A DNA stretch of 64,000 nt from Selenomonas sp. oral taxon 920 (GTDB taxonomy: Bacteria; Bacillota; Negativicutes; Selenomonadales; Selenomonadaceae), in the NCBI RefSeq assembly GCF_001717585.1, contig NZ_CP017042.1, positions 905,501-969,500 of the forward strand, in the 5' to 3' direction. Positions within the stretch are counted from its first letter, which is position 1. Every line of letters starts with the position of its first letter. Positions 54,148 through 56,440 of this stretch are shown piece by piece. The notes below the pieces were generated by a model. It saw nothing but the letters and a program-made list of their open reading frames with translations. It ran no database searches and was not told where the DNA came from. The position numbers were made by a program, and so were the translations under genes.

Positions 54148-54180
54148 ATACCGCCGAAGAACTGCTTCGGCGGTATTTTA
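54148..54180 (+). terminator. rho-independent terminator after flgD
   Basis: ATACCGCCGAAG pairs with CTTCGGCGGTAT, a perfect 12-bp stem with loop AACTG, followed by TTTA. It is a strong end to the fliK-flgD transcript. Confidence 0.9.
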
Positions 54181-54183
54181 TAC

Positions 54184-54212
54184 TTGCATAAAAATTCTTC
54201 ATCTATTATAAT
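54184..54212 (+). promoter_or_regulatory. sigma-70-type promoter with downstream hairpin
   Basis: TTGCAT (54184-54189) and TATAAT (54207-54212) are 17 bases apart. A hairpin, CATCCCA (54223-54229) with TGGGATG (54238-54244), lies in the leader just after the expected start of transcription, which may stabilise the RNA or regulate it. Confidence 0.7.
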
Positions 54213-54267
54213 GTGGTCATAACATCCCAAGGGAAAATGGGATGGAGATGAAATGGAGGGAACCATT

Positions 54268-54681
54268 ATGGCAATACCGGCACTCAGAAGCGGCGGCTTC
54301 GGTTCAAGTCTCTTTCAGCGCGCGAACCGTGAGGCACAGCGCATCGGCGGACAGGTGACCCATGAGAAAATGCAGGAGGTCGCGTCCGTCATCGGCGGCT
54401 CGAATTTCGGCACCGGCACGAAGCTCGGCAAGGGGCAGTTTCATCAGACGCAGAACCGTGTCGCTCAGGAGGGAGCGCAGAGCACCTCGCGTGCGGCGCA
54501 GAAGTCCGTGGAGAACATGGATCCAAGGCGTCTCGGCACGAGCCAATTCCAGCGCACGAACCGCGAAGCACAGCAGATCGGCGGGCAGGTGACGCATGAG
54601 CTTATGGAGCAGGTCAAGCAGGCGTATGCGACCAGCCATCCGGTGCAGAATCTCGGTAAGAATGTAGATATTGCTGCATAG
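54268..54681 (+). CDS. small protein with three internal repeats, unknown function
   Basis: A 137-residue protein that I do not recognise. It holds an approximate 26-residue unit three times: residues 13-38, 56-81 and 91-116. Units 1 and 3 are nearly identical over FQR-NREAQ-IGGQVTHE-M--V, unit 2 is diverged. It has no signal peptide, membrane helix or cysteine, and is rich in Gln, Gly and Ala, probably a helical repeat. The ATG at 54268 follows GGAGGG. It has its own strong promoter and terminator, so it is a dedicated single-gene unit, probably well expressed. Confidence 0.8.
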   Translation: MAIPALRSGGFGSSLFQRANREAQRIGGQVTHEKMQEVASVIGGSNFGTGTKLGKGQFHQTQNRVAQEGAQSTSRAAQKSVENMDPRRLGTSQFQRTNREAQQIGGQVTHELMEQVKQAYATSHPVQNLGKNVDIAA

Positions 54682-54697
54682 TCCGGACATGAAAATA

Positions 54698-54736
54698 ACC
54701 CGTGAAGATTCAATGGGTGAGTCTTCACGGGTCGTT
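54698..54736. terminator. bidirectional terminator between convergent genes
   Basis: ACCCGTGAAGA (54698-54708) pairs with TCTTCACGGGT (54722-54732), an 11-bp stem. CGTTTTAATTT follows on the + strand, and TTATTTT follows on the - strand. It serves both the repeat-protein gene and the LysR gene. Confidence 0.85.
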
Positions 54737-55752: not shown

Positions 55753-55873
55753 ATGTACTTATGCAGAAAGTGCTTAGGCCGCATAAAATTGTAAGGTTAT
55801 TTTTTTGTGAAAAACGATATATTTAATAGAGTGGAACTACAACTTGTTATATGAAAATGAAGGGGAGAGGATC

Positions 55874-56440
55874 ATGAGAATCGAGCAAACGTCAGCAGAT
55901 CTTCTTGGACGGATGAATCAGTCGCAACGTGCAAAGAAGCATGATGCAGGTGACTTTGCGTCGGTGCTTTCATCGGTTCAGTCCGACCAGACGGAGAAGG
56001 CAGCGGAGAAAGAGCCGAAGCCGGGGAATCCTCTCGGTATTTCCGATGAGGAGTATCGGTGGTATTTCAGCGGTCTGCGTTATGATGCCGATCACGTTGC
56101 ATATTTTCCGCCGCATGACGCTCCGGTCGAGCAGCAGCGCGCTTGGTATGAAGCTGTGAAAGGCTTGTCTCATTTGGAGATGCAGTCGTTCATGTCGGAT
56201 CTTTCCTTGGCTTTGCGCGGTAAAAAAGATTACCTCAGCTATGATGAGATGACCGAAAAAATTCAAAAGCTCGGCTATCACGGTGTACTGGAAGCGGTCT
56301 ACAAATGGGAGAAACAGGTGGAACATGACAGTGCCGGTGTTGTTGATGAGCAAAGCTTTGAGATCATCAAGCGCCATGTTCATCTGTGTGAGAATCTTCT
56401 CGATGAATGGCTCAAAGGAGAGAAGAAAGAGGATAAGTGA
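55874..56440 (+). CDS. hypothetical protein, divergent from LysR
   Basis: A 188-residue soluble protein that I do not recognise. The N-terminus (MRIEQTSADLLGRM, then a Lys/Glu/Asp-rich linker to about residue 50) looks disordered, like that of flagellar export substrates or chaperones. The remainder is helical and acidic, with conserved-looking YRWYFSGLRYDADHVAYF near 60, WYEAVKGLSHLEMQSF near 97 and LDEWLKG at the end. ATG 55874 follows GGGGAGAGG. It is ended by a strong terminator, so it forms its own unit. A flagella-related role is only a guess from the nearby fliK-flgD. Confidence 0.78.
   Translation: MRIEQTSADLLGRMNQSQRAKKHDAGDFASVLSSVQSDQTEKAAEKEPKPGNPLGISDEEYRWYFSGLRYDADHVAYFPPHDAPVEQQRAWYEAVKGLSHLEMQSFMSDLSLALRGKKDYLSYDEMTEKIQKLGYHGVLEAVYKWEKQVEHDSAGVVDEQSFEIIKRHVHLCENLLDEWLKGEKKEDK

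Follow-up and report, generated by a model that had tools for sequence, protein, structure and literature searches.

What is the short repeat protein encoded after the flagellar genes fliK and flgD in Selenomonas sp. oral taxon 920, and what controls its production? The gene lies within a window of 64,000 nt, the whole stretch of DNA analyzed here, to which all coordinates refer. A sequence-only reading had described it as a stand-alone gene for a triple-repeat protein unlike any known family, with its own strong promoter, leader hairpin, and bidirectional terminator, and had judged it probably well expressed.

The repeat gene and its protein family

Our analysis confirmed the stand-alone character of the gene, whose ATG start codon follows closely on a GGAGGG Shine-Dalgarno sequence and whose promoter-like site, leader hairpin, and terminator are its own (Table 1); Pfam likewise confirmed its position after fliK and flgD. 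Other parts of the earlier description need qualification. A promoter-like TTGCAT-17 nt-TATAAT is indeed there and recurs as TTGC...TATAAT in all seven genus orthologue leaders inspected, but it is at most a putatively strong promoter, as a consensus promoter scan reports no site at 54184–54212 and the −35 box matches only three of six positions. The downstream terminator was found by a scan in which shuffled sequences average 0.7 sites of this kind, but on the (+) strand alone, and its bidirectional use is only plausible; for the terminator of flgD, the scan lists just the inner stem (54161–54174). The claim of good expression has to be qualified because the leader appears to be built for translational repression by CsrA (see below).

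Table 1. Predicted features of the repeat gene and its flanks (window coordinates)
Feature	Position	Strand	Basis
Terminator 3′ of flgD (12-bp stem, T-run), dividing the repeat gene from the fliK-flgD unit	54148..54180	+	sequence read
Promoter-like TTGCAT-17 nt-TATAAT, sigma-70 type	54184..54212	+	sequence read
Leader hairpin CATCCC/GGGATG whose loop contains ANGGA (54230–54234), the first predicted CsrA site	54223..54244	+	fold, covariation
A further ANGGA (ATGGA) that overlaps the 3′ side of the hairpin stem	54242..54246	+	sequence read
ATGGA and AGGGA overlapping Shine-Dalgarno GGAGGG, predicted CsrA site at the ribosome-binding site	54253..54261	+	sequence read
CDS, three-unit repeat protein, 137 aa	54268..54681	+	ORF/translation
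Repeat unit 1, residues 11–40, without SNFG linker	54298..54387	+	family profile
Repeat unit 2, residues 45–83, sole complete unit, SNFGTGTKLGKGQFHQ...	54400..54516	+	family profile
Repeat unit 3, residues 88–119, linker shortened, spaced 36 residues from unit 2	54529..54624	+	family profile
Conserved C-terminal motif NVDIAA	54661..54678	+	C-terminal pattern across family
Intrinsic terminator, 15-pair stem, between the repeat gene and convergent lysR	54698..54732	+	terminator scan

The protein does contain three repeat units, and the core said to be common to copies 1 and 3 is real, with 18 of 23 residues identical (Smith-Waterman score of 105; best of 2,000 shuffles, 44). The similarity of copy 2 to copy 3 is weak (4 of 2,000 shuffles score as high), and that to copy 1 is not significant (153 of 2,000 shuffles as good). 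A family profile, iterated over 18 family proteins including the 137-aa protein itself, detects all three units with E-values of 1.4e-12, 2.9e-17, and 2.6e-14. However, the family-wide unit is 42 residues long, SNFG[NT]ETK[LIA]G[ST]SxFQ[QR]xNxxxxxxGxxxTxxxMxxAKxYYxV, and the 26 residues reported earlier are its core. Family proteins carry two to six units, some of them partial, and 36 of 41 sequences (near-duplicates counted) end in [VIL][DN]-hydrophobic-x-x.

The 137-aa protein lacks cysteine and has a GRAVY of −0.73 and a predicted pI of 10.3. These properties extend to the family: not one of 7,412 residues in 41 sequences is cysteine, in comparison with 1.19% in a sample of proteins from the same genome, although cysteine-free proteins are not rare there (18 of the 110 with 130–260 aa); the mean GRAVY is −0.71 (range, −0.46 to −0.95; 39 sequences), and the pI is at least 8.7 in 36 of 39. 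Hydrophilins are recognized by a glycine content above 6%, a hydrophilicity index above 1, and induction by stress, and all 39 sequences exceed the glycine value (6.8–12.2%). Values of dN/dS of 0.05–0.13 against four orthologues indicate that the protein is under purifying selection. Two AlphaFold2 models (pLDDT of 50 and 46, pTM of 0.18 each) offer no reliable fold and support no role for the protein; at low confidence, they place one helix of ~27–31 residues in each unit, joined by flexible linkers and without tertiary fold. In our best explanation, the gene encodes a Selenomonadaceae-specific soluble protein built of helix-plus-linker units.

The claim that no known family resembles the protein holds for curated collections, as nothing in Pfam or NCBIfam exceeded the cut-off for the 137-aa protein, but it does belong to an undescribed repeat-protein family, which we encountered only in Selenomonas and related bacteria. 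Specifically, of 380 genomes searched in the class, 100 have a match to the repeat profile, and every one of these is from the Selenomonadaceae, where the repeat is carried by 100 of 189 genomes and 19 of 30 genera. A separate scan of GTDB contigs yielded 76 loci labelled as Selenomonas, Schwartzia, Mitsuokella, and other Selenomonadaceae or, if uncultured, as Veillonellaceae or Selenomonadales. None of the openly licensed PMC papers listed (in the largest listing, the first 10 of 915) dealt with the family, which does not prove that no such paper exists, and searching PDB sequences with the family profiles returned nothing below an E-value of 0.66. The Pfam scan of 18 members gave scattered matches to 21 unrelated families at E ≤ 0.1, the best being an AtzH-like match in one member (E = 1.1e-4). 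No flagellar family was matched by the 137-aa protein in Pfam or NCBIfam, and none is among those 21 Pfam families. Against PHROGs, the 137-aa protein returned nothing below 0.067, and one relative matched a family without assigned function at E = 1.4e-4, none of its individual stretches passing. A mobile or phage origin was considered and rejected: with one relative as query, neither plasmid nor phage records gave a match, although a single-unit relative does lie on a contig of a viral collection (see below).

Homology to small acid-soluble spore proteins (SASPs) was also considered and rejected after the Pfam scan, a profile-profile comparison, and an analysis of genome distribution. Residues 95–118 in repeat 3 resemble positions 34–57 of the SASP alpha/beta profile (PF00269; 24 residues), with an E-value of 0.012 and 16 bits, which is below the 22-bit cut-off although the match is attractive to the eye; such weak matches occur in just 3 of the 18 members. 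Comparison by hhalign with 29 SASPs of the class gave probabilities of 0.1 and 0.18%, the SASP alignment not being diverse (Neff of 2.2), and none of the 53 SASP-positive genomes among 200 searched in the class is from the Selenomonadaceae. Judging from these comparisons, the weak SASP match is a chance one.

Single-unit relatives form an unnamed sister subfamily (L034, L053, and L183–L187, with L183 being the gene of L053) that shares one 42-residue unit of the type SNFGxETKxGSSxFQQ. Its proteins differ from the multi-unit family in their length of ~103 aa and in both ends, starting with MLIGxVGLNxIANQ and, in most, bearing YTKNATLAAIRQ near the end. A further single-unit relative (L191:4965–5300) lies on a 504-kb contig of a viral collection, near genes for a WGR-PARP protein and radical-SAM proteins; although labelled viral, this contig could represent a plasmid as well as a huge phage, or could have been misassigned. 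The repeat gene L106 (genome G334) has a start like that of the g47 gene, whereas its continuation is like L049 of genus g13, so that it looks like an assembly chimera or a recombinant.

ANGGA motifs in the leaders of repeat and flagellin genes

Leaders were extracted for 41 repeat genes (40 loci and the 137-aa gene), selected through a protein motif filter that is independent of leader sequence. Ten that were fragmentary, had misplaced starts, or nearly duplicated others were dropped before motif counting (L045, L090, L114, L111, L096, L098, L089, L106, L095, and L100), leaving 31 leaders of 75 nt; all start codons, including those behind flagellin and control leaders, are predictions. We found 96 ANGGA motifs in the 31 leaders, whereas dinucleotide shuffling left 30.4 ± 4.3 and never more than 45 in 200 trials, a test whose significance is overstated by relatedness among the leaders. 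Since leaders within a genus are related, we also counted one per genus in 14 genera (the 137-aa gene, L043, L044, L046, L048, L049, L051, L052, L086, L102, L103, L107, L047, and L033), which gave 37 motifs, a mean of 2.6, and at least two in each. Among the 31, the number of motifs varied from two (7 leaders) through three (16) and four (7, including that of the 137-aa gene) to six (1), with a mean of 3.1. In comparison, 245 leaders of the same genome contained 0.91 on average, with at least three in 12 and at least four in one, and 247 leaders from clade contexts contained 0.85.

The motifs are also distinctive in position. An ANGGA upstream of the Shine-Dalgarno zone occurs in 28 of 31 family leaders versus 28% of 339 intergenic controls, and one within the last 22 nt occurs in 29 of 31 versus 54%. 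In minimum free energy folds, a GGA falls within a hairpin loop of up to 14 nt in 23 leaders (74%) versus 23% of the same controls; the folds of the other 8 of 31 have none there. ANGGA was enriched 4.4-fold, the highest value among the permutations tested, followed by AANGG (4.1-fold, often overlapping ANGGA), AAGG (2.9-fold), and TNGGA (1.7-fold), while the non-A NGGA combined (0.72-fold) and GGAG (0.49-fold) were depleted and GAGG was absent, which argues against plain purine richness. Nearest-neighbor spacing of ANGGA ranged from 6 to 40 nt (median, 19) in the family and is 11 nt in the leader of the 137-aa gene, where the loop site and the Shine-Dalgarno site lie 23 nt apart. Within coding regions, ANGGA is only slightly more frequent than in synonymous shuffles (119 versus 107.7 ± 5.1; 3 versus 2.5 in the 137-aa gene).

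The leader hairpin of the earlier description withstood examination, with a z-score of −2.32, only 6 of 200 shuffles as stable, and compensatory changes. Across eight sequences of the genus, 93.8% of cells are paired; of the six pairs, three are invariant, one varies on one side, and two are changed on both sides, and the loop reads A-N-G-G-A in all eight, with N variable. The covariation score of these eight leaders was reached by 30 of 500 shuffles, so covariation is supportive only. Rfam yielded nothing credible for the leader, its two matches having E-values of 0.66 and 0.98.

The well-studied target of CsrA in Firmicutes is flagellin. The repeat leaders resemble the hag and flaA leaders in having at least two GGA sites, of which one typically lies in a hairpin loop and another covers the Shine-Dalgarno sequence (PMC7652899, PMC4894983): two CsrA sites, one of them over the Shine-Dalgarno sequence, are described for hag (PMC7652899), and Campylobacter jejuni CsrA is reported to enrich hairpin-loop AAGGA, mostly from flagellar mRNAs (PMC4894983). 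The same paper gives 18 nt as the optimal site spacing and 21 nt for flaA. The genome under study also has the partners of the flagellin system, with csrA directly beside fliW and flaG adjoining. Flagellin leaders of the clade, obtained from 27 of 30 loci, contain 1.85 ANGGA on average. Two or three motifs are present in 20 of 27, one at the Shine-Dalgarno sequence and another, as judged by eye, in a short hairpin; the remaining 7, including one of the two flagellins of the same genome, have the Shine-Dalgarno motif alone. The two sets differ in that the repeat leaders mostly carry three or four motifs (23 of 31) and the clade flagellins mostly two (17 of 27), and in that the repeat gene has a sigma-70-type promoter-like site. 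A gene that appears by eye to be flgK-like (L242:12269–13990) has two ANGGA in its leader, which resembles the 3′ part of S. ruminantium repeat-gene leaders.

In contrast to the multi-unit family, in which every leader counted has at least two ANGGA, leaders of the sister subfamily contain a single motif, or two in L034. Loci outside the set of 31 that were read later gave counts of three (L047), two (L033 and L034), and one (L053, L191, and each of L183–L187), and in five sister genes (L183–L187) and in L191 the single motif is that of the Shine-Dalgarno sequence.

Genomic neighborhood and co-occurrence with flagellar genes

The neighborhood of fliK and flgD, to which the sequence-only reading had drawn attention, is conserved inside the genus but not outside it. 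In genus loci, flgD lies directly upstream in 8 of 8 and lysR downstream in 5 of 8; in the other three, one contig ends and two run straight to a permease. A 198-aa ORF (55844–56440) stands between lysR and a purine permease in part of the genus loci, with no Pfam match among the 188 aa scanned from 55874. In other genera's contexts, neither fliK nor flgD was found nearby and neighbors differ; a conserved operon partner was sought by comparing neighbors with BLAST and rejected, at most two contexts sharing an adjacent gene.

Five Selenomonas genomes keep flgD and the flanks in order without the repeat gene, the site being empty in four and containing an insert, transposase-like by eye, in one; the two of these genomes checked for flagellin (G002 and G006) have it. 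The gene is therefore dispensable, which rules out an obligate flagellar component. Among good-quality genomes (at least 90% complete, at most 5% contaminated; cross-counts compiled by hand from genome lists), FlgD is present in 52 of 54 with repeats, and the other two (G162 and G334) have flagellin genes. Repeats are present in just 52 of 88 FlgD-positive genomes, and their absence from the other 36 sets the family apart from the flagellin system. Five genomes of genera g8 and g10 lack FlgD, CsrA, and repeats together; flagellin is missing too from the two that were checked for it. The csrA gene hardly discriminates, being found in 52 of 54 repeat-positive and 38 of 45 other good-quality genomes, with repeats but no csrA match in G298 and G334. 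Taken together, the co-occurrence with flagellar genes is compatible with co-regulation but does not prove it. Genus g16 (S. ruminantium-like; G028, G315, G316, and others) has two CsrA matches in 17 of 22 CsrA-positive genomes, while the family mostly has one.

Proposed role and competing explanations

On balance, we consider it probable that the repeat protein is a soluble protein controlled by CsrA and FliW and co-regulated with the flagellum. The predicted control of the leader by CsrA is well supported by motif number, position, and hairpin. The proposed course of events has good support as a whole: CsrA would bind the hairpin-loop site and the Shine-Dalgarno site together and would block ribosomes on the mRNA, FliW would antagonize CsrA here as it does for flagellin, and the protein would thus be produced while flagella are under construction. 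The flagellin-like two-site layout suggests that the protein is most likely switched on with flagellin, its production probably keeping pace with that of the flagellum. What it does there is more tentative: it might act in or beside the flagellum as an accessory, exported, or tuft-organizing protein, although it matches no flagellar family, and perhaps folds only on a partner. The absence of cysteine in the family is compatible with possible export via the flagellar apparatus, without proving it.

Several other explanations were weighed against CsrA/FliW control of a flagellum-linked protein. The leaders may be merely purine-rich or contain stand-by ribosome sites, with no part for CsrA and a function unrelated to motility. 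The case for CsrA does rest wholly on sequence statistics, and AANGG and AAGG are enriched as well; however, ANGGA heads the permutations while GGAG and GAGG are depleted upstream, GGA lies in hairpin loops at three times the control frequency, and the sister subfamily makes do with the Shine-Dalgarno motif alone in five genes and L191 (two motifs in L034), all of which makes this explanation unlikely. Alternatively, the leader itself could be the active part, an abundant mRNA serving as a CsrA sponge to which the protein is secondary. There is precedent in the flaA leader of C. jejuni, which is reported to be able to titrate CsrA (PMC4894983), and the repeat leaders carry more ANGGA than flagellin leaders. 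Against it, the protein is under purifying selection, its units and C-terminus are conserved over genera, and the excess of motifs in coding regions is slight, so that we regard a sponge with a secondary protein as decidedly improbable; a sponge role and a CsrA-controlled protein can, however, hold together.

The protein might instead resemble hydrophilins or SASPs and, in stress, coat or protect macromolecules such as nucleic acid. Such a role would suit its lack of cysteine, hydrophilicity, high pI, models without tertiary fold, and sub-threshold SASP match, but SASP is only one of 21 unrelated families matched at this level and only in 3 of 18 members, the hhalign probabilities are minimal, the SASP-positive genomes among those searched lie outside the Selenomonadaceae, cysteine-free proteins are not rare, and a protein with this role would not be expected to have a flagellin-like CsrA leader; we therefore consider it quite unlikely. 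An extended form of the flagellum-linked explanation is motivated by the flagellar bundle that the crescent-shaped selenomonads carry on their concave side (PMC13339959). In this form, the helix-linker repeat protein would belong to the CsrA-FliW checkpoint as a lineage-specific member other than flagellin, would be made with the filament, and would help to build or place the lateral bundle on the concave side, with the repeat number setting a length and the multi-site leader tuning free CsrA. We offer it as speculation that is very improbable as a whole.

According to a 2026 paper, no study has mechanistically examined the motility of oral Selenomonas species (PMC13339959). The conserved leader with its several sites would make this undescribed protein a directly testable second target of CsrA in a diderm Firmicute, and it offers a handle on a protein family found here only in selenomonads.
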